This document shows, piece by piece, positions 3,941 through 18,910 of a stretch of DNA of 38,042 nt. This stretch comes from Streptomyces thermovulgaris (lineage in GTDB: Bacteria; Actinomycetota; Actinomycetes; Streptomycetales; Streptomycetaceae). The DNA lies in the NCBI RefSeq assembly GCF_002155915.1, contig NZ_MUME01000157.1:1-38042 (forward strand), in the 5' to 3' direction. A program made the position numbers and the translations under genes. Position 1 is the first letter of the stretch; each line of letters starts with the position of its first letter. Below the pieces are notes generated by a model. The model was not told where the DNA came from, did no database searches, and saw nothing but the letters and a program-made list of their open reading frames with translations.

Positions 3941-4025
<85 letters not shown>

Positions 4026-4176: not shown

Positions 4177-5541
4177 TCAGCCGTACCCGTTCAGGCGTGC
4201 CGAGATCTTCGCGTTCGCCGCTTCGTCTCCGTCGCTCAGGAACTTTGCGTAGACGCGGAACAGTACGGCGACACTGTGGCCGGCACGCTTCGCCACAAGC
4301 TGAGGCTCCACACCAGAGCTGAGCCACGTGGACACGGCGGCGTGACGAAGATCATAGGGACGCTTGGCCAGCGAAGACGCGTACTGCGAAGGAGTGAGAG
4401 CCCGCGCCCGGGCCTCAGCCCAGACTTCGCCATAACCGGTGTCCTGGATCAGCCCGCCGCGCTGGGTACGAAACAGCCGACCGTCCGGGGCGACGCCGTA
4501 CGCCATGACGTGCCAGCGCAGCAGGGACACGAGTTCCGGCGGTATGGGAACTTGCCGGACCGCTTTCCGCGGCCGGTGCTTGAGTCCTCGCCTGTCGTGG
4601 GCGTCGCCGCTGTCCGTCCATGCGGTGCCGGAGCGCGGTCGTGTCTCTCGGAGCCGCAGCATGCCCCATCCGCGTCGCGGCAGGTCGCAGTCCTGGAGGC
4701 GCAGGCCGATGACCTCCGCCGGCCGTGCTCCGGCGTAGTACATACAGCCGAAGAAGGCGACCAGACGACGTCCCCGGGCGCTTTGATCCCGTACGGCCGC
4801 TAACAGTTTCGCCGCTTGGGCAGGATCAGGTACGCAAGCCGGGTCCACCTCCTCTTCAACCTGCTCAGGTGCCTTCCACTGGATCTTGTGAAGAGGGTTC
4901 TCCGCCAGCAGTTCGGCATCCACCGCGTACGCGAGCGCATTGTGAAAAATGGCCCGCTTACGGCGAATGGTGGACGCTGCGGCCGTCGTACCGTCCAACT
5001 TCCTGGTGAGGAGGTCCAAGGCGGCCCGGACGCGCATCCGGTCGGCCAGCGCGGATGCGGGCACCGAGTTGCGTTCGAACCAGCGGAGAATCTTCCCGAC
5101 CTCCGGGGGCGGTTCCTCGTCCCACCGGTTCTTGTTGAACGCCCAGCCGTAGAGGGCCGCGCGCGCGTTTCTCGGGTCCGGCATTCCCTTGGTGTCCTTC
5201 ACGAGCGCCGGCATGACGGTCGCCATGGCCTCAGCGAGAGTCCTGCGGGTGGAGGCCGGGGAGTGCGGCCACTTCATCTCGATGTACCGGCGGGCGTGCT
5301 CGTACCAGGTGGTGTTCCGTTTCTCGGTGAGCAGGGACTTCGGTAGTCCGCTGTCGACATCGAACGGTTCACCCTGACGCGCCGCAGTGATGAGCTGGGC
5401 CCGGCGGCTCTCCGCCAGGCCCAGCGTCAGGAAAGACTCCGAATGGGGGCGGTTCCCCACCTTCCACCGGAGCTGGTAGGGCTTCCGGTAGTCACGCTTG
5501 CGGATAGCCCAGATGCGTACGGTGTAGCTCCACTCAGTCAC
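4177..5541 (-). CDS. int: AICE tyrosine recombinase / integrase
   Basis: The 454-residue site-specific recombinase catalyses insertion into and excision from tRNA-Tyr. The C-terminal catalytic domain shows Arg-I in YYAGARPAEVIGL (R273), a beta-hairpin Lys region (KAVRQVPIP), the box II block YDLRH (Y396, R399, H400), AGHS (H422) and the nucleophile Tyr431 in RVYAKF. The first His of the usual HxxR is Tyr here, a variant I know from actinomycete integrases. The N-terminal half contains an SAM-like core-binding domain (about 70-210). The GTG start overlaps the xis stop by four bases (GTGA), so int is coupled to xis. It faces the tRNA gene at the element's left end, as usual for AICEs. Confidence 0.95.
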   Translation of the reverse strand: MTEWSYTVRIWAIRKRDYRKPYQLRWKVGNRPHSESFLTLGLAESRRAQLITAARQGEPFDVDSGLPKSLLTEKRNTTWYEHARRYIEMKWPHSPASTRRTLAEAMATVMPALVKDTKGMPDPRNARAALYGWAFNKNRWDEEPPPEVGKILRWFERNSVPASALADRMRVRAALDLLTRKLDGTTAAASTIRRKRAIFHNALAYAVDAELLAENPLHKIQWKAPEQVEEEVDPACVPDPAQAAKLLAAVRDQSARGRRLVAFFGCMYYAGARPAEVIGLRLQDCDLPRRGWGMLRLRETRPRSGTAWTDSGDAHDRRGLKHRPRKAVRQVPIPPELVSLLRWHVMAYGVAPDGRLFRTQRGGLIQDTGYGEVWAEARARALTPSQYASSLAKRPYDLRHAAVSTWLSSGVEPQLVAKRAGHSVAVLFRVYAKFLSDGDEAANAKISARLNGYG

Positions 5542-5747
5542 GCGGCTTCCAGTTCGTCGATGAAGGCGTCCAGGTCACTTCGGCGCACACAGATGCGGCC
5601 GGTCGGCGTGCGCCGCGCCTCCGGCCCGTAGCCGCGGTTACGCCAGCGATACCACGTGGCGCGGCTGATGCCGATCTCTTCCAGGGCATCGCTCAGGGGC
5701 ACCAGCGGGTCCTTGGGGGTGCGCCGTCGACGAGAAGGGGTTGCCAT
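5538..5747 (-). CDS. xis: Excisionase-type HTH protein (Xis)
   Basis: The 69-residue basic protein carries a MerR/AlpA-like helix-turn-helix (PLSDALEEIGISRATWYRWRN) followed by the wing GPEARRTPTGRICVRRSDLDAFI. This is the standard small excisionase (recombination directionality factor) found immediately upstream of AICE integrases. A good SD (AAGGAG) precedes the ATG by about 9 bases. The stop overlaps the integrase start. The ratio of Xis to Int would set the direction of recombination. Confidence 0.88.
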   Translation of the reverse strand: MATPSRRRRTPKDPLVPLSDALEEIGISRATWYRWRNRGYGPEARRTPTGRICVRRSDLDAFIDELEAA

Positions 5748-5789
5748 GCCTGGGTCTCCTTTTGAGCAGGAGGAGGGACAGAGCGAAAG

Positions 5790-5819
5790 GGGGCCAGGGG
5801 TGTTTGGGCCCCTGGCCCC
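5790..5819. terminator. Hairpin between the DUF3631 gene and xis
   Basis: Perfect 11-bp stem (GGGGCCAGGGG with its complement) with an 8-nt loop TGTTTGGG. On the minus strand it lies after the replication operon and about 40 bp before xis, and is followed by a pyrimidine-rich tract. It probably separates replication and recombination transcripts. Confidence 0.55.
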
Positions 5820-5829
5820 TCCCAGGAAT

Positions 5830-6042
5830 CCGCTACATCCGCTACGTCCGCTACAGCCCAGGTCAGGGGCATGTTTTCTGTAGCGGATGCGTGGCGTGTA
5901 GCGGCTCGGTGCCGCTACGCCGGGCCGCCGCCGGTGGCGGACGTAGCGGTTTCGGCGGGCGTGTAGCGGATGCCGGGGAGGCCATCCGCTACGGATTCGC
6001 CCCTAGTGACCTGCGGTGTAGCGGCTGTAGCGGATGTAGTGG
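5830..6042. repeat. Iteron-like array of CCGCTAC/GTAGCGG, candidate origin
   Basis: Eleven exact copies of the 7-mer CCGCTAC (or its complement) occur in 213 bp: at 5830, 5839, 5848, 5880, 5898, 5912, 5943, 5963, 5986, 6018 and 6027. A one-mismatch copy is at 6036. The outer copies form two triplets with exactly 9-bp spacing (5830/5839/5848 and 6018/6027/6036) in opposite orientation. The array spans the 3' end of the DUF3631 gene and the gap before xis. Such helical-phase repeats next to a replication gene resemble iterons of a replication origin. That role is inference; Xis or repressor binding sites are alternatives. Confidence 0.65.
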
Positions 6043-7171
6043 ATCTGACGGGGGGCGGGGGGCAGTACCGGGCCCACGCGTCGGCCAGGTCCTCCGCGTA
6101 GTAGCCGCGCGGGACCGCGCCGCCCGGGGTGCGGATGGGGCGCGGTTTGATGGGCTTGTTGGCCGCGGTGACGTACTGGCTCAGCAGCCGGGCCAGGCCG
6201 CGGGAGGTGAGCGGCTTGCCGCCGATGTCGACCCAGGGGGCGTCGTCCATGGCGAGCAGGCATTCCAGGATGGCGGCGGTGGGCATCCGGTCGGCGCCGC
6301 AGAACACGGTGTCGCGCAGGTCGGTGAGCAGGCGCACGCCCAGCGACGCCTCATCGTCCTGTGCGGCGGCGGCCACCAGCTCCACGCAGGCGGCCCGGGC
6401 GCGCTCCGGCCAGGCGCCGCCGGCCGCGTCGGCAACAGCGAGCAGGGGTTCCCACACGTCGGCGGGCCGGTCGGTGACGCCTTCGGGCATCGCCGGCCAG
6501 GCGCCCTCCACGGCGTCGCGGACGGTATCGGCCCACTTCGCGAGCCGGTCGCGCAGCGCGCGGCCCTCCTTCTCGTGGACGCGCTGCCGGTAGGGCTCCA
6601 CCTTCTCGTTCCGGGCGCGGCGGCGCATGCGGATGATGACCGAGCGGGTCAGGATCGTGTCCGGCAGGGAACCGAGCCCGGCCATGGCGACCGCGCAGTA
6701 GGAGGGGAACGCCTGCACGCTCTGGCTGGAGCCGTCGCCCACGCACCGGTAGGTGACGCCAGAGCGCCGGTGTCCGGCGTTCAGGAAGCCTCTCAGCTCC
6801 TCGTTGTCGCCGGCCTTGGGGCCGAAGACGGTGTCGATCTCGTCGAACAGGATGGTGGGGCGTCCCTCGGTGCCGGAGACGGCCCGGAACAGGGCGGCGG
6901 CGGACGCGTTGACGGCGACCATCGGCTGCGGCACCAAGGTTTCCACGATCTCCAGGGCGCGGGACTTTCCGGACCCGGGCTCGGGGGAGAGGAAGGCGAG
7001 CCGGGGGGTGGAGTCGAAAGCGTCGAGCAGGTGAGCGTGGGCGTCCCACAGGGTGACGGCCACATAGGCGGCCTCGGTGGGGAAGACGTTGAAACGGCGG
7101 TGGAACGCTTCCACCTCGTCCAGCAGCGCGGCGCCGTCGATGGACGGCGCGGGCACCTGAGTGGGCGTCAT
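5915..7171 (-). CDS. DUF3631 P-loop ATPase, AICE replication protein
   Basis: The 418-residue protein has a Walker A motif SPEPGSGKS (about residues 62-70), Walker B TILFDEIDTVF (about 106-116) and then the DUF3631 region, a helicase-like domain found with primases on actinomycete elements. It probably works with the primase encoded two genes upstream to start element replication. The ATG is preceded by AAGGGAGGA and overlaps the stop of the preceding small gene (ATGA). An in-frame extension upstream is out of keeping with this SD and is rejected. The last about 45 residues (STTSATAAT and following) are encoded within the CCGCTAC iteron array, so this tail is probably not under strong protein-level constraint. 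Confidence 0.85.
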   Translation of the reverse strand: MTPTQVPAPSIDGAALLDEVEAFHRRFNVFPTEAAYVAVTLWDAHAHLLDAFDSTPRLAFLSPEPGSGKSRALEIVETLVPQPMVAVNASAAALFRAVSGTEGRPTILFDEIDTVFGPKAGDNEELRGFLNAGHRRSGVTYRCVGDGSSQSVQAFPSYCAVAMAGLGSLPDTILTRSVIIRMRRRARNEKVEPYRQRVHEKEGRALRDRLAKWADTVRDAVEGAWPAMPEGVTDRPADVWEPLLAVADAAGGAWPERARAACVELVAAAAQDDEASLGVRLLTDLRDTVFCGADRMPTAAILECLLAMDDAPWVDIGGKPLTSRGLARLLSQYVTAANKPIKPRPIRTPGGAVPRGYYAEDLADAWARYCPPPPVRSTTSATAATPQVTRGESVADGLPGIRYTPAETATSATGGGPA

Positions 7172-7542
7172 GCGGCGTTCCTCCCTTCTTGAGTGGTGCG
7201 CAGTGGGCAGAGGTCGCGGTGGGCTTCGTGATCTTTGATCAGGGCGAGCACCCGATGCCGACCGACGGCGCTTTTGTCCCGGCCGCACATGCACTTCGAG
7301 GTGGCGGTGGGGGTGGAGCCGCGCGGTGCGCAGACGTGGAGCCACGCCATGGGGAAGCGGTCGTCACCGGCCAGCGGGCGACTCGGGTTCCGGTCGGTGA
7401 GAGGGGATGAAAGGACGCCCTGACGGGCGGCCTCTTCTCGGCCGCGCTCGGGAGCCGGGGCCGCCGCGGCGACGGCGGGGCCGGGATGCGGCGGGGCGTC
7501 AGGAGGGCTTTTCAGGTTGCAGCGGGCGGGGGAGGTGGTCAT
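7168..7542 (-). CDS. Small Cys/His protein of the replication operon
   Basis: The 124-residue protein is of unknown function. Its first half is Pro/Ala-rich and low in complexity. The second half is conserved-looking: WLHVCAPRG, KCMCGRDKSAVGRHRVL and DHEAHRDLCPL, giving a C-x(n)-CxC-x(n)-H-x(2)-H-x(3)-C pattern that could bind zinc. The ATG overlaps the primase stop (ATGA) and the stop overlaps the DUF3631 start (ATGA), so it is coupled on both sides. I recall similar small proteins beside Prim-Pol/DUF3631 pairs on other Streptomyces elements but know no assigned function. A DNA-binding or primase-helicase bridging role is a guess. Confidence 0.8.
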   Translation of the reverse strand: MTTSPARCNLKSPPDAPPHPGPAVAAAAPAPERGREEAARQGVLSSPLTDRNPSRPLAGDDRFPMAWLHVCAPRGSTPTATSKCMCGRDKSAVGRHRVLALIKDHEAHRDLCPLRTTQEGRNAA

Positions 7543-8459
7543 GCCGCCTCCTCGCGTGGGCGGGCGGTGCGGATTGACCAGTTCAGGGCGCTGCGGATGG
7601 TGGCCCGGCACTCGCCCGGCGGGAGTCCGGCCGCCTCTCCGGCCGCCTGAAAAGCCTCCTCCACCACGTCGCGCGGGATCTCGCCCCAGGCGACGAACCG
7701 GCCCAGGGCACGGGCGCCAGCCAGCAGCCGGTTGTTCCGGCCGCCCTCCCGCGTGGCGGCGACGGCGGCCGTCTCCCGCTCCAGGGCCACCTGGGCGCGG
7801 CGGGTGATCGGCCCGGAGACGATAACCGGCGCCAGCGCCGTACGGGCCGTGGGTGCCGGTCGGAGCCGCTCCAGGAGCCAGACAGGCAGCGGCGCCGCCG
7901 GGCTGGTGTTCACGGCCTCGTAGGCGCCGTGCGGGGTGATGCTGCCAGCGGCCACGATGTTGCCGCCCCACGCGCGGGTGTCGACGTTCGGGGCGACGGT
8001 GCGCGCGGTGCAGTGCAGTTCCACCCCGGGCGGGGCAGTGAAGTACAGGTGCATGCCGCCGGAGGGCGTCCGCACCGTGTAAGTGGTCGGCCACGGCTCG
8101 CCGGCGCGCTCGCAGAGCGCCAAGAAGACGGCCGCGCCGCAAGGCGCGTCCGAACTACTGCCTTTGTCCTTGGGCATGTCCAGGTCGACGACGACCAGGC
8201 CGGATGGACCGGTGGCGATGCCGACGTTGAACGCGCCCGCGCTCCATGCGGCCCGGATGCGGTCGGGGTCGGTGGTGGCCCGCTGCTCCCACTTGCGGTG
8301 TCCGTTGGCGCAGTCGCCGGTGCCGGGACAGGTGCGTTCGCCGTGCAGGGCGGACGCCTTGCCGCCGGGGCGCAGCGGGTGGACGTGCCAGCCGCGAGCC
8401 GCCGCATCCAGGGCGGCGGCGAGCAGGCGTGCTCGCCGGGCGGCGGGGTGATGGGTCAT
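7539..8459 (-). CDS. Bifunctional DNA primase/polymerase (Prim-Pol)
   Basis: The 306-residue protein carries an archaeo-eukaryotic-type primase/polymerase domain as in ORF904-like plasmid enzymes. The metal-binding DLD is in GPSGLVVVDLDMP (D92, D94), followed by the GGMHLYF His (about 137) and a distal DTRAWGGNIVAAGS block (about 160-173). The N-terminus (RGWHVHPLRPGGK) is typical of the family. The C-terminal about 90 residues (NNRLLAGARALGRFVAWGE to the end) form a helical region of the kind following Prim-Pol domains. It would synthesise primers and short DNA for element replication. GGAGG lies about 9 bases before the ATG. The longer in-frame reading upstream runs through the SSB gene and is rejected. 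Confidence 0.9.
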   Translation of the reverse strand: MTHHPAARRARLLAAALDAAARGWHVHPLRPGGKASALHGERTCPGTGDCANGHRKWEQRATTDPDRIRAAWSAGAFNVGIATGPSGLVVVDLDMPKDKGSSSDAPCGAAVFLALCERAGEPWPTTYTVRTPSGGMHLYFTAPPGVELHCTARTVAPNVDTRAWGGNIVAAGSITPHGAYEAVNTSPAAPLPVWLLERLRPAPTARTALAPVIVSGPITRRAQVALERETAAVAATREGGRNNRLLAGARALGRFVAWGEIPRDVVEEAFQAAGEAAGLPPGECRATIRSALNWSIRTARPREEAA

Positions 8460-8548: not shown

Positions 8549-8995
8549 TTAGAACGGCGGCTCGTTGCCCGGCTCTGCGGAGCTGTCGGCGGTGCTCCAC
8601 ATGTCGTCGCGGACCGGAGCGGCGTTGGTGCGCTTGCCGTTGATCGTCACGGTGGTGAAGCGCAGGGAGGCACCGATCTCGTCGGCCTCGACGGCGAGCA
8701 TCGAGCGGTTTTCGCCCTCCGGGGTCTGCCAGTCGTGCTGGCGGATGCGGCCGAAGACGACGACGCGCGAGCCCTTCACCAGGGAGTCGGCGACGTGTTC
8801 GGCGAGGGTGCGCCAGGCGGCGCAGCGGAAGAACGTGGAGGTGCCGTCCTTCCACTGGTTCGCCTCGCGGTCGAACACGCGCGGTGTGGAGGCGACTGTG
8901 AAGCGCGCGAGGGCCTGGCCGGAGGCGGTGAATTTCAGCTCCGGGTCGGCGGTGAGGTTGCCGATGATGGTGACCGGGGTTTCTCCGAGCGACAT
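8549..8995 (-). CDS. ssb: Single-stranded DNA-binding protein (element copy)
   Basis: The 148-residue OB-fold SSB contains ETPVTIIGNLTADPELKFTASGQALARFTVA and the core FFRCAAWRTLAEHVADSLVKGSRVVVFGRI. The C-terminus ends EPPF, which matches the acidic/aromatic SSB tail that recruits replication partners, though the usual DDDIPF form is shortened. It is an element-encoded paralogue placed upstream of the Prim-Pol gene and presumably coats single strands during element replication. The SD GAGGAG precedes the ATG by about 8 bases. Confidence 0.93.
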   Translation of the reverse strand: MSLGETPVTIIGNLTADPELKFTASGQALARFTVASTPRVFDREANQWKDGTSTFFRCAAWRTLAEHVADSLVKGSRVVVFGRIRQHDWQTPEGENRSMLAVEADEIGASLRFTTVTINGKRTNAAPVRDDMWSTADSSAEPGNEPPF

Positions 8996-10177: not shown

Positions 10178-10330
10178 ACTGTCAGAGGGTGCGGCTCTGA
10201 CAGTCAGACGAGGTGTCAGGGGCTTTGTCAGGCCGGAAATCCCTGACTTTCCTATAGGCCGGGCCGCGCCCTGACTGTCAGAGTCAGAGCGCGGCCCTGA
10301 CAGTCAGGGCGTCACGGTGGGTAGTGTCAG
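10176..10330. repeat. TGTCAG repeat cluster with two hairpins behind traB
   Basis: The hexamer TGTCAG or its complement occurs seven times in 155 bp: at 10180, 10197, 10214, 10226, 10276, 10297 and 10325. The copies build a 12-bp perfect inverted repeat (10176-10187 with 10195-10206) and a 13-bp one (10269-10281 with 10297-10309). The latter competes with a 9-bp stem GGGCCGCGC/GCGCGGCCC at 10261-10297. The last copy overlaps the stop codon of the TraB-type gene. Clustered short repeats next to traB recall the clt/TRS sites to which TraB of Streptomyces plasmids binds. An operator for the downstream genes is the alternative. Confidence 0.65.
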
Positions 10331-12477
10331 GCGGCGATGGAGGCCGGGCGGACGATGGTGTACTCGCCCTGTCCGTCGCGGCTGAGCACGCCCTGTTCGG
10401 TGAGCTTTTTCAGCTCGCCCTGGAGCCAGGGGCGGGAGCGGCCGGCCTTCACGGCGGCGGGGATCAGGTCGCCCGGTTCGAAGGTGAGCCGGTCCTGTGC
10501 GGCCCAGGCGTCGATCTGGCCGTAGAGGATGGCGCGGGCCTCTTCGGTGGACGGCTTGGCCGTCTGCTCGAAGGTGAGGTCCGTGTCCGGGTCGGTGTCG
10601 GGTACGTCGTCCTCCAGGCGGAGGCGGGCGTAGGGGGCGTCCGGCTCCGGGTCCGCCGGGATCTGCGCCATGACCTCCTCGTAGGCGTCCTGCAGTTCCA
10701 TGGTTGCGGCCTCCTCTGCCGCCGGGTCTACGGCGTCCGTCTCGTCCGTCTCCTCGCCGTCCGGGACGTCCCAGGCGGGTGCGGGGCCGTGCACGGCGCG
10801 CAGGGCGGTGATGGGTGCCTGTTCCAGTTCCTGGCCGGGGTCGAGGCGGTTGGTGCCGCGGTGGGTGCGCCGCTCGTAGGCCAGGCCAGCGGCCCGTGCG
10901 GAGATGTCGTCCAGCGGGTCGCGGACCGCGGTGGCGGCCAGCACCATCTCCCGGATCTGCTCCTTGACCGTCTTGGTCAGGCAGCCGCGCACTTCGGTGG
11001 TCCACCGCTTGGCCGGAATGCCCATGCCGGTGGCGTAGGCGTAGCCAGGCCGGTCCGCGCCCCAGTCCGGGACGGCACCGGATTCGGTGACCCGATCGGG
11101 CAGGCAGAACGCCGCGTCGGAGGCTTCGTCCACGCCGAAGCAGACGGCGGCTTGGAGGTTGGCGCGCACGTCGGTGTCGAGGTTCTTCCACGTGGCGCGC
11201 TGGAGACTGATCACCAGCCAGATGCCCACGGAGCGGGCCTTGCGGGCGATCTCGTCCAGGACCGAGAAGTCGGCGACGTCGGCGGCCTCTTCGATCCACA
11301 CCACCATGGCGTTGAGCTTCGACTGGGGCGTCCACTGGTCCAGGCCCTCCGCAGCCAGGGCGGTGCCCCGTTCGGCGATCACGGCCGGCAGGCAGCGCAG
11401 CATGGCCTTGGCCTCGCGGGTGCCGCCGCGCTTGCGGTCGACGAACCAGTCGATGCCCTCTTTCATGTGCCCGACCGTCTGCTCGCCCTTGGCCAGGTCG
11501 ATCAGCCAGATCGACAGCTTGCGGCGGGTCATCAGGTGGGCCAGCACGGTGCGGGCGAACTCCGACTTGCCGGAGCCGGTGACGCCCATGACCAGCAGGT
11601 GCTGGAGGATCTCGGCCTTGAACGGGTTGATCCACCAGGTCTCGCCGTCGGCGTACTGGCCGGCCGGGATCGGTTCGGTGGGCAGCAGCCCCAGCTCCTT
11701 CGGCGGCAAGAAGGGGACGCCGTCTTTGAGCAGGTCGGCGACGCGGGCGGAGAGCGTGCCGCGGGCGGCGTTGTCGGAGTCCTTGCCGATGGTGACCGCG
11801 GACGGCGGCACGTGCAGCGCAGCCGCGAGCTTGGGGGCGGCCGTCTGCACGTCGTCCATGGTCTTGCTGGGCGGGACGACCACCTCAGCGGTGACCATGC
11901 CCTTGCCGTTGCCGCGCACGTTCTTGACCTGCACCTTCTCCAGGCCGACTGCTTCGGCGAGCTTGGCCAGGCCGGTGGAGTCGGTCTCCTCGGTCTCGTC
12001 GTGGGCGTTGCGCATGATCTGCCGCACGTTCCACGACGCGGCGAACAGCCCGCCCCCGAGCAGCCACAGATCCGTCATCGGATGCCCGAAGGGACCTGCG
12101 GAGACGGCGCAGGTCAGCCAGCCCATGCCAGCGGCCACGCTGGCGGTGGCCTGGGCGCGCCGGTAGCGGCGGAACTTGTTGCTGCCCCCGGAGACGGCCC
12201 AGGTCACGGCGGACAGCAGGACGCCGCCCACGCCCAGGCCGGCGGAGGCGAGCCCGGCGGACAGAGCAGAGCCGCCCCACATCTCGTGCACTCCCCATCC
12301 GGCGACCGGGGGGAGGACGGCGGCGCCGATCCACGGGGGCAGGTACGGCGCGGCCTTGGCCGCCAGGTGGTTGCCGATGGTGGACAGGATGCCGCCCCGC
12401 CCGGCGGGCAGGGCAGCCAGGGCATAGCCGTCGTGGCTGTGCAGTGCGGGGAAGTGGTCGCGGTCGCGGCGGGCCAT
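10327..12477 (-). CDS. TraB-like FtsK/SpoIIIE DNA translocase (transfer protein)
   Basis: The 716-residue protein is the conjugation motor: in Streptomyces elements one TraB-type hexameric ATPase moves double-stranded DNA between hyphae. An N-terminal region (about 45-150) has several hydrophobic segments that would anchor it in the membrane. The motor domain has Walker A GVTGSGKS (298-305) and Walker B MVVWIEE (391-397). The C-terminal 70 residues (ARAILYGQID to LSRDGQGEYTIV) look like a winged helix, comparable to the FtsK gamma domain that reads DNA repeats. The ATG directly follows the stop of the 186-aa gene (TGA-ATG), so translation is coupled. Divergence from pSAM2 TraSA cannot be judged here. 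Confidence 0.92.
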   Translation of the reverse strand: MARRDRDHFPALHSHDGYALAALPAGRGGILSTIGNHLAAKAAPYLPPWIGAAVLPPVAGWGVHEMWGGSALSAGLASAGLGVGGVLLSAVTWAVSGGSNKFRRYRRAQATASVAAGMGWLTCAVSAGPFGHPMTDLWLLGGGLFAASWNVRQIMRNAHDETEETDSTGLAKLAEAVGLEKVQVKNVRGNGKGMVTAEVVVPPSKTMDDVQTAAPKLAAALHVPPSAVTIGKDSDNAARGTLSARVADLLKDGVPFLPPKELGLLPTEPIPAGQYADGETWWINPFKAEILQHLLVMGVTGSGKSEFARTVLAHLMTRRKLSIWLIDLAKGEQTVGHMKEGIDWFVDRKRGGTREAKAMLRCLPAVIAERGTALAAEGLDQWTPQSKLNAMVVWIEEAADVADFSVLDEIARKARSVGIWLVISLQRATWKNLDTDVRANLQAAVCFGVDEASDAAFCLPDRVTESGAVPDWGADRPGYAYATGMGIPAKRWTTEVRGCLTKTVKEQIREMVLAATAVRDPLDDISARAAGLAYERRTHRGTNRLDPGQELEQAPITALRAVHGPAPAWDVPDGEETDETDAVDPAAEEAATMELQDAYEEVMAQIPADPEPDAPYARLRLEDDVPDTDPDTDLTFEQTAKPSTEEARAILYGQIDAWAAQDRLTFEPGDLIPAAVKAGRSRPWLQGELKKLTEQGVLSRDGQGEYTIVRPASIAA

Positions 12478-16419: not shown

Positions 16420-16607
16420 AGTCAAGGCTGGTTCGCCGGTTCGGATGGGCTGTCGCCCGCTGCGGCGCACTTCCAGGACACCGTTCGAGACAGGGGCGTC
16501 GGTAGCCAACAGTCCTTAACTTCCGGCCTGTTAACCCCTGTTGACCTGCGGCAATGTCGTGCATGCTGGGCAGGTCAGTGGAGGGAACGAACGCCGGACG
16601 GTGGCCT

Positions 16608-17738
16608 GTGAACGCAGGACTTCGGAACGCGCGTACGGCGCGCGGGTGGTCCCAGGAACGACTGGTTCGCGAAATCGAGCAGTACGCCCGACGGAACCTC
16701 GTCGACGTGGCGTCGAAGGCCAGCCTGCGCGTGTACGTGTCCGAGTGGGAGAACGGCAAGCGGGTCATCTCGGATCGCTACGCGGCCATCCTGCGGCGGC
16801 TCCTGGGCGTTACGGACGCAGAGTTGAGGGACACCGGCCCTGCTCAGGCCGTACCGATGGCAGACGGCTACGGCGAACTGCTCAGCAGGATCGACTCCGC
16901 CAGCAGTGTCAGCGCGTCCATGGTGAAGGCGTTCAACGACCAGACCGAACTCCTGCGCACCATGGATCGCCAGATGGGCGCCGCGGGCCTCGTCGACCAG
17001 ATGACCGGCCACCTTGCGGCGCTGGAGGAGGCGTTGAACTTCGCCGTCCTGCCTTCCGCTCGCCGGCCGGTTGCCCTCGCGCTGGCTGGCGCGTCGACCC
17101 TCGCAGCGTGGCAGGCGATCGACTCAGGGGCGGTCGAACGGGCATGGCGGCACTACGAGCTTGCGAAGCGGGCCGCGCGTGATGCTGAGGCACCGATGTA
17201 CTTGGCGCACGCGATGGGTGAGCAGGCGTACGTCCTGTGCGAGGCCGGACGACCGGCGCTCGGTGTCGAGCTGGTGCGCGACGCTCAGCGCACCTTGGGG
17301 CAGGCCGGCTCGCCTCGGCTTCGAGCGTGGCTCCATGCAGCAGAGGCAGAGCTATGCGCTCACGCTGGCATGCCGGATGATTGCCGCCGTGCCCTCGATG
17401 CGGCCATGAACGAGATTCCTCCGGGGGCTGAGGACCGAGACCCGGACATGGTGAGCATCTTCCTGAACGGTGCTCACCTCACCCGGTGGCGGGGCAATGT
17501 GCTCGCTCTGCTCGGTGACGAAGAAGCGGTGACCAGCCTCTACAACGCACTGGAAGTGATGGACCCGACGTTCGTCCGGGCTCGGGCCGGTCTGCATGCC
17601 GACCTGACCCAGGCACACCTGATCCGGGCCGAGTACGACGATGCGCGGACCCACCTGCAGCAGGCTCGATTGCTGGCGAGCCGCACCGGATCGGTGCGGC
17701 AGCGGCGGCGCATCGACATGCTCAGCTCGAAGCTGTGA
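16608..17738 (+). CDS. XRE-family regulator with helical repeat domain
   Basis: The 376-residue protein has an N-terminal Cro/C1-type helix-turn-helix (LRNARTARGWSQERLVREIEQYAR with VSEWENGKRVISDRYAAILRRLLG, about 4-70). A long alanine-rich helical region resembling TPR repeats follows (about 140-370; e.g. HYELAKRAARDAEAPMYLAHAMGEQAYVLCEAGRPALG). This architecture is common among Streptomyces regulators. On this element it may play the activator role of Pra in pSAM2, but that is inference. The start is uncertain: GTG 16608 begins the HTH, while in-frame ATG 16554 or 16563 and GTG 16578 lack good SDs; GGAGGG lies at 16579. It is the only rightward gene of the element, and its last 17 bp overlap the convergent GntR-Nudix gene. 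Confidence 0.85.
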   Translation: MNAGLRNARTARGWSQERLVREIEQYARRNLVDVASKASLRVYVSEWENGKRVISDRYAAILRRLLGVTDAELRDTGPAQAVPMADGYGELLSRIDSASSVSASMVKAFNDQTELLRTMDRQMGAAGLVDQMTGHLAALEEALNFAVLPSARRPVALALAGASTLAAWQAIDSGAVERAWRHYELAKRAARDAEAPMYLAHAMGEQAYVLCEAGRPALGVELVRDAQRTLGQAGSPRLRAWLHAAEAELCAHAGMPDDCRRALDAAMNEIPPGAEDRDPDMVSIFLNGAHLTRWRGNVLALLGDEEAVTSLYNALEVMDPTFVRARAGLHADLTQAHLIRAEYDDARTHLQQARLLASRTGSVRQRRRIDMLSSKL

Positions 17739-18853: not shown

Positions 18854-18910
18854 CAGACTGTAAATCTGCCGGCTCAGCCTTCCTAGGTTCGAATCCTAGC
18901 GCCGCCACAC
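18854..18910. repeat. attR: attR, 57-bp attachment core
   Basis: Perfect copy of 3969-4025. It contains only the anticodon-to-acceptor part of tRNA-Tyr and so is a non-functional tRNA fragment. It marks the right boundary of the element. Confidence 0.95.

Follow-up and report, generated by a model that had tools for sequence, protein, structure and literature searches.

A candidate iteron origin in a Streptomyces AICE and the coupling of its repeats to two residues of the DUF3631 protein RepAM

Described systems and the host element

SaPI Rep and the SCCmec protein Cch2 recognize, through a C-terminal domain, iterons that lie directly downstream of their own genes (PMC7581432). In Streptomyces, pWTY27 replicates bidirectionally in a theta-type mode, and the footprint of its RepA falls on a long inverted repeat (PMC3583192). 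The winged helix of TcpK, from pCW3, binds 9-nt oriT repeats with its beta-wing in the major groove (PMC6137059). The RepAM-bearing AICEs of the pMEA300 type have a tRNA-integrated int-xis-rep-tra plan and sometimes a Prim-Pol (PMC3218068); the word iteron has no occurrence in the main text of that paper, which is also the only one to name DUF3631 among the matches listed for the RepAM/pMEA300/DUF3631 literature. Among the matches listed in the open-access literature on AICEs, RepAM/pMEA, Prim-Pol, SaPI Rep and iteron-binding winged helices, we found no report of the repeat array or the residue-base coupling described here.

We analyzed a 38,042-nucleotide stretch of Streptomyces thermovulgaris DNA (contig NZ_MUME01000157.1; hereafter the window), which contains an AICE of about 14.9 kb integrated at a tRNA-Tyr gene (positions 3941-4023). 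An identical 57-bp repeat stands at both ends of the element, at the 3' end of the tRNA gene (3969-4025) and at the far end (18854-18910), both on the plus strand. Besides this integration at a tRNA 3' end with a duplicated attachment core, the element has the gene content of an AICE, all on the minus strand: Pfam identifies a tyrosine integrase (Phage_integrase; 4177-5541), an Xis-like HTH_17 protein (5538-5747), a replication module, and an FtsK/SpoIIIE transfer protein (10327-12477) that is TraB-like and falls below the NCBIfam TraB cut-off. The replication module comprises RepAM, a 418-aa DUF3631 protein with a P-loop (PF12307, E = 2e-64; 5915-7171) that we propose to be the iteron-binding initiator ATPase; a 124-aa protein without a Pfam family (7168-7542); a Prim-Pol, the presumed primase of the module (PF09250, E = 1.2e-45; 7539-8459); and a single-strand binding protein, SSB (PF00436, E = 3e-27; 8549-8995). 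The element also encloses an NsdA-family regulator near its far end (16554-17738).

This locus shares with those of SaPI Rep and Cch2 an ATPase initiator, iterons at the gene end, a nearby primase and an integrated mobile element. As described in PMC7581432, SaPI Rep and Cch2 contain Primase_Cterm/D5 or DUF927 domains and have their iterons directly downstream, whereas RepAM matches DUF3631 only (Pfam, E ≤ 0.001) and its array overlaps the gene end; moreover, binding has been demonstrated for Cch2, whereas the recognition residues of RepAM are proposed from natural variation. Our best reading is that RepAM would work like SaPI Rep and Cch2, and we do not file it as a member of their group. Streptomyces pWTY27 likewise has a Prim-Pol, a second Rep and adjacent direct and inverted repeats, but its repeats are GTGGGAAC and TTCCCAC and its RepA has 522 aa (PMC3583192). 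The pMEA300-type elements share the DUF3631 family and the overall plan; rolling-circle replication was predicted for pMEA300 RepAM (PMC3218068), whereas an iteron-reading winged helix is proposed here.

The array at the RepAM gene end and in relatives

A 213-bp segment (5830-6042) holds eleven exact copies of CCGCTAC/GTAGCGG, with CCGCTAC on the plus strand at 5830, 5839, 5848, 5912 and 5986 and GTAGCGG, the minus-strand orientation, at 5880, 5898, 5943, 5963, 6018 and 6027. A first-pass annotation of this DNA had counted eleven exact copies and one near copy; the exact count stands, while the near count was one short, since GTGGCGG at 5934-5940, 9 bp from the copy at 5943, had been overlooked and only GTAGTGG at 6036-6042 counted. 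The latter is the third member of a right-hand triplet (6018-6042, minus strand) that lies inside the RepAM coding sequence and faces a left-hand triplet (5830-5854, plus strand) outside the gene, downstream of its stop. The outer triplets do run in exact 9-bp steps toward each other, as had been claimed, and they belong to a larger structure: both are contained in an imperfect 38-nt inverted repeat (33 of 38 positions matching, 87%), whose left arm (5828-5865, plus strand) ends in a CAGGTCA box (5859-5865) and whose right arm (6007-6044, minus strand) starts with a TGACCTG box (6007-6013). The array was also said to adjoin the DUF3631 gene and cover its 3' end, and the RepAM TAG stop codon (5915-5917) indeed falls within the copy at 5912-5918.

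Such a density is very unlikely by chance, as the first pass had held. The window contains 20 exact copies, compared with a mean of 4.03 in shuffled windows (maximum 9; none of 100 shuffles reached 20), and 11 of the 20 lie within 0.2 kb while the other nine are scattered. In 840 Markov shuffles of the homologous regions of relatives, CCGCNAC sites averaged 0.47 with a maximum of 4, against observed medians of 11-13. Across the 6.0-Mb assembly, the spaced triplet pattern (up to three mismatches) matches only the two triplets of the array, a test that is weak on its own because a backward control pattern matched four times.

Around the array we found no clear AT-rich unwinding stretch (30-bp windows reach at most 47% A+T), and a scan of 5700-6150 for sigma-70 promoters, the promoter type that it covers, and for intrinsic terminators returned nothing. 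Between the array and xis lies a perfect 11-bp inverted repeat, GGGGCCAGGGG / CCCCTGGCCCC, with an 8-nt loop (5790-5819), for which the terminator scan gave no call.

RepAM relatives occur in 154 of 295 sampled genomes of the same genus, counting a second family that is about 45% identical. Together with further loci from a contig search (the best 80 of 278), these gave a first set of 97 non-identical RepAM proteins. In the first set, 42 gene ends carry CCGCTAC arrays and 55 carry CCGCCAC or CCGCAAC arrays, the latter having at first been taken as array-less. Arrays of some 7-15 iterons thus fall into three classes, CCGCTAC, CCGCCAC or CCGC(A/C)AC, and nearly all copies of an array switch together. 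Of the 172 non-redundant RepAM loci of about 70% identity or more, 168 have a CCGCNAC array at the gene end that could be scored, so the array survives protein divergence in relatives, the check that the first-pass annotation had proposed. Of the four unscored loci, L109 ends at a contig edge, and L175, L188 and L189 carry a variant TCGGTTACA array, with Val or Ile at residue 353 and T at the matching base. The gene ends at differing points within the array, which argues that the array is kept for its DNA. Many short repeats that adjoin a rep gene and are kept in relatives are what an iteron-type origin looks like.

Absence of the array from related elements, which the first pass had named as telling against an origin, was not borne out, since the nearer family keeps the array. 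The more distant second Streptomyces DUF3631 family (L193-L211, about 43% identity) counts against, as its gene ends lack a CCGCNAC array. The most frequent 3'-end 7-mers of this second family are mostly not above shuffles, and the family was left out of the residue-base rule described below. In nine of its loci (L194-L197, L200-L202, L205 and L206), dense CCGGACC / CGGTCCC / GGGGACC arrays with 10-19 copies per 300 bp are found at the opposite side of the gene, some 1.3-1.6 kb ahead of the point where the DUF3631 match ends.

A CAGGTCA / TGACCTG box beside each triplet recurs in the nearer family. The left pattern (one variant allowed) is found in 142 of 168 loci and the right pattern (two variants allowed) in 160, with both in 135; a gap of 4 bp separates the left box from the iteron before it in 138 loci and the right box from the iteron after it in 108. 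These boxes raise the question of a second recognition element. Some individual loci are irregular in other ways: in L128 and L138 (genomes G113 and G175), two DUF3631 matches, one of them partial, adjoin on one contig; the RepAM frames of L127 and L175 are broken by stop codons, with the T array and the TCGGTTACA array, respectively, still present; and L082, L092 and L104 have overlapping iterons such as CCGCTACCGCTAC or CCGCTACCGCAAC, the second copy sometimes being off-class.

Coupling between RepAM residues and iteron bases

Among the 97 proteins of the first set, residue 353 is the best predictor of array class: Val or Ile accompanies T at base 5 of the iteron (CCGC-N-AC), Phe accompanies C, and Thr accompanies A or C. 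Counted by site, T stands at 421 of 431 positions with Val and at 19 of 20 with Ile, C at 277 of 283 with Phe (and A at none), and A or C at 380 of 393 with Thr. All 168 scorable non-redundant loci fit this rule (104 with Val or Ile and T, 22 with Phe and C, 42 with Thr and A or C), with class limits that were fixed after the data had been seen. Eighty more loci were fetched after the rule was framed; dropping six copies of earlier sequences left 74, of which three have no CCGCNAC array and all 71 array-bearing loci obey the rule, although this set is not fully independent because many of its loci are close relatives of the first. Residue 353 in these 74 loci is Val in 59, Ile in 6 and Thr in 9, and Phe occurs in the first set only. 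The concerted switch of base and its protein determinant go beyond what the first-pass annotation saw.

This predictive power is specific to one column. When RepAM columns 1-411 were scored singly, residue 353 misassigned none of the 168 loci and the next-best column 19; in separating C from A/C, the next-best column misassigned 7 of 64. No column of Int, Xis, the 124-aa protein, Prim-Pol or SSB predicts the class as residue 353 does in the loci where these proteins could be aligned: their best shares of class entropy are 0.42 for Int (44 loci), 0.30 for Xis (55), 0.28 for the 124-aa protein (88), 0.31 for Prim-Pol (151) and 0.67 for SSB (18), versus 1.00 for residue 353 of RepAM. Array class carries no signal of incompatibility between co-resident elements, since 11 of 18 same-genome pairs differ in class and the shuffle mean is 10.6.

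The rule holds on both sides of the stop codon. Iterons wholly outside the gene have T at 735 of 759 sites with Val or Ile, C at 136 of 137 with Phe, and A or C at 249 of 250 with Thr; the 14 apparent T sites of the Thr class that lie inside genes are all conserved Arg-Tyr-Cys codons of RepAM. These counts bear on the idea that the repeats are a coding or compositional artefact, a protein repeat of Ser-Ala-Thr tripeptides seen in DNA. The 9-bp spacing of the right triplet does equal three codons, and of the 705 coding copies, 474 have base 5 in the third position of a codon. Against these stand the 1146 iterons that the 168 loci hold outside the gene, which follow the same rule as the 705 within, the occurrence of copies on both strands, and the shifting of the coding end within the array. 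Where base 5 is the first base of a codon, the DNA sets the amino acid: residue 403 is Tyr, His or Asn according to the iteron base, the reverse of a protein constraint, and selection therefore acts on the DNA. We reject the protein-repeat explanation, which the first-pass annotation had named as the finding that would undo its proposal and to which we give practically no chance, because iterons past the stop obey the same base rule and the gene end varies within the array.

Class and residue have changed together repeatedly. On a tree built from residues 10-300, and so without the C-terminal domain, array class changes at least 17 times; residue 353 with Val and Ile pooled changes 17 times, as does the joint label of class and residue. 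Independent pairs on supported branches agree in 5 of 5 cases for T versus not-T and 5 of 5 for C versus A/C, which taken alone is no more than suggestive because there are at most five pairs each (p = 0.0625). A tree of residues 301-372 without 353 has 14 changes and gives agreement in 2 of 2 and 2 of 2 pairs. Two kinds of switch can be seen. In some, the gene end is exchanged together with the array, as between L026 (T) and L094 (A/C), whose identity drops from 96% over residues 1-300 to 83% over residues 301-372; others are near-point-wise, as between L021 and L023, which differ by four changes in residues 301-372, including T353F. In the L021/L023 pair, 3 of 105 iteron columns differ, compared with 37 of 186 other columns, and two of these three differences replace A by C at base 5, one in the first iteron and one in the last.

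Because the array adjoins the codons concerned, part of the correlation stems from linked inheritance, and in the extreme the gene end and array would be inherited as a block, with residue 353 tracking ancestry and another protein binding the array. Neighboring C-terminal columns do correlate with class, and block exchange is visible in L026/L094. We nonetheless judge this account very improbable: residue 353 is the only scored column without error despite its 21 residue changes on the tree, independent pairs from supported branches show class and residue changing in concert, Val occurs with T again in proteins about 50% identical, and columns of the other module proteins, where these could be aligned, fail to predict class.

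A second residue is coupled to the base that follows the 7-mer; this base is predominantly C in 54 loci, and in the other 114 it is A or G. Lys occupies position 347 in 53 of the 54 C loci, and Arg does so in all 114 A/G loci (167 of 168 fit), a count taken on the same loci in which the residue was found by scanning all columns; the one exception is L075, with Arg and C. On the tree of residues 10-300, the base changes 7 times and residue 347 changes 8 times, and 5 of 5 supported independent pairs agree; on a tree of residues 10-335, a mean of 4.7 of 5 pairs agree for residue 347 and none disagree.

DUF3631 matches extend well beyond the nearer family: sampling the class gave 43 of 394 genomes with a match, sampling the phylum 14 of 296, and sampling four families 33 of 200, 2 of 17, 1 of 12 and 16 of 251; viral contigs have matches as well. 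Many of these distant proteins (about 40-68% identical) have 3'-end repeats, often of another sequence, and the distant set comprises 128 rows, 25 of them without a parsable wing. With Val at the equivalent of residue 353 and less than 60% identity, the base is T in 6 of 9 loci (L245, L247, L249, L251, L256 and L312), the top 7-mer passing p = 0.05 against shuffles in L251 and L256 only, and the other three have no motif of this form. With Thr, the base is A or C in 10 of 20 loci (p ≤ 0.05 in L221, L225, L254, L255 and L314); two are ambiguous (L230 and L243), seven lack such a motif, and in L306 the base is G, contrary to the rule (p = 0.04). Gln often occurs with CCGT(A/C)CC in one distant family, and Pro accompanies CCGTAAC in two loci (L265 and L280); of the other Pro loci, L267 is mixed and L287 has no clear reading. 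Judged from these sequences, the residue 353 rule holds in distant proteins wherever the motif is distinct, apart from a single exception; many loci could not be read.

Three records in a plasmid search match RepAM. Two of them, of 13,544 and 14,273 bp, are complete circular plasmids whose shared genes stand in the same order. Both have Val353, and near the gene end T occupies all 13 sites in the first and 12 of 13 in the second; the third record, from Nonomuraea, is 46.5% identical. The two circular records agree with a circular autonomous form of the element, deposits of this kind being no proof of replication. A phage search with RepAM gave one distant record.

Predicted wing, proposed initiation and meaning

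In RepAM, G66-S67-G68-K69-S70 and D110-E111 are invariant in 35 sequences; we take these to be Walker motifs. At E ≤ 0.001, Pfam matches DUF3631 (PF12307) only, and no rolling-circle Rep family. AlphaFold2 predicts a winged helix for residues 261-372 (6056-6391, minus strand) with a mean pLDDT of 87.3 and a pTM of 0.79; in the whole-protein model (mean pLDDT 49.7), the C-terminal part alone is usable. Residues 347 (CGC, Arg; 6131-6133, minus strand) and 353 (GTC, Val; 6113-6115, minus strand) are both placed in the predicted wing loop, residues 346-354, before the last strand. A Foldseek search with the C-terminal model gave no PDB or viral match at E ≤ 0.001; by sequence, whole RepAM matched nothing in the PDB at E up to 1, and the best hit of the C-terminal domain was an unrelated chain at E = 0.039. 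VIA fold matches of the C-terminal model reach Z 7.1 (the Cdt1 winged helix), within the common-fold range. The match to TcpK (5vfx_A; Z 5.8, 3.2 Å over 82 residues) is weak and may be just the common wHTH fold. Like RepAM, with its predicted winged helix, TcpK pairs this fold with short tandem repeats and provides a precedent for reading by a beta-wing, but it is a transfer accessory protein (PMC6137059).

The prediction of rolling-circle replication for pMEA300 RepAM, drawn from putative nick sites like those of the pC194 family (PMC3218068), would give RepAM the role of a rolling-circle initiator, with the array as its binding region in a double-strand origin. This is a shade less probable still than block inheritance, given the lone DUF3631 match in Pfam (E ≤ 0.001), the invariant P-loop and the neighboring Prim-Pol. 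An array with so many iterons in both orientations and with triplets that face each other also does not resemble a double-strand origin.

We favor a reading, with a probability of roughly 78%, in which the array is the element's iteron origin and RepAM a P-loop ATPase initiator that reads the iterons by its C-terminal wing. That the array is an origin is suggested by its place beside the initiator gene, the predicted recognition and the two circular plasmid records. RepAM would dock on the iterons through the wing of its C-terminal winged helix, with residue 353 reading base 5 (Val or Ile for T, Phe for C, Thr for A or C) and residue 347 reading the base after the repeat (Lys for C, Arg for A or G). 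Chemically, the major-groove amino groups shared by A and C would suit the Thr hydroxyl, and the thymine methyl would suit Val or Ile. The facing triplets may seat two RepAM assemblies, after which RepAM would load on or open the duplex, the element's own Prim-Pol would prime, and SSB would protect the opened DNA. We infer physical binding by RepAM, the two assemblies, helicase loading and origin activity. Somewhat less firmly, we think it probable that the DUF3631 wing constitutes a natural amino-acid-to-base code, in which residues 353 and 347 set single bases across whole arrays. The tolerant Thr state may act as an evolutionary stepping stone from origins strict for T to those strict for C, or the reverse.

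Iterons also regulate in other replicons. RepAM might accordingly bind the array as an operator or copy-control (handcuffing) site for xis-int or rep, and on the same strand the array closely precedes xis; the residue-base coupling supports recognition and does not speak to its consequence. We regard such a role in place of an origin as unlikely, since a simple operator would need less than the facing triplets, the CAGGTCA boxes and the median of 11-13 sites per locus, the sigma-70 scan at the array, which covered that promoter type, was empty, and the origins of SaPI Rep and Cch2 occupy this very place (PMC7581432).

Pfam lists DUF3631 as a domain of unknown function, and the coupling points to an iteron-reading initiator ATPase. 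It also tells the probable place of the origin in many actinomycete elements, and suggests how such elements recognize their own. How an initiator can shift its specificity in step with that of a dozen DNA sites, a long-standing problem of incompatibility and replicon specificity, becomes testable here. If the proposed reading is true, the specificity of a whole array would be readable, and perhaps rewritable, from two codons; orthogonal origins would exist across actinomycetes, and these may serve Streptomyces vectors.
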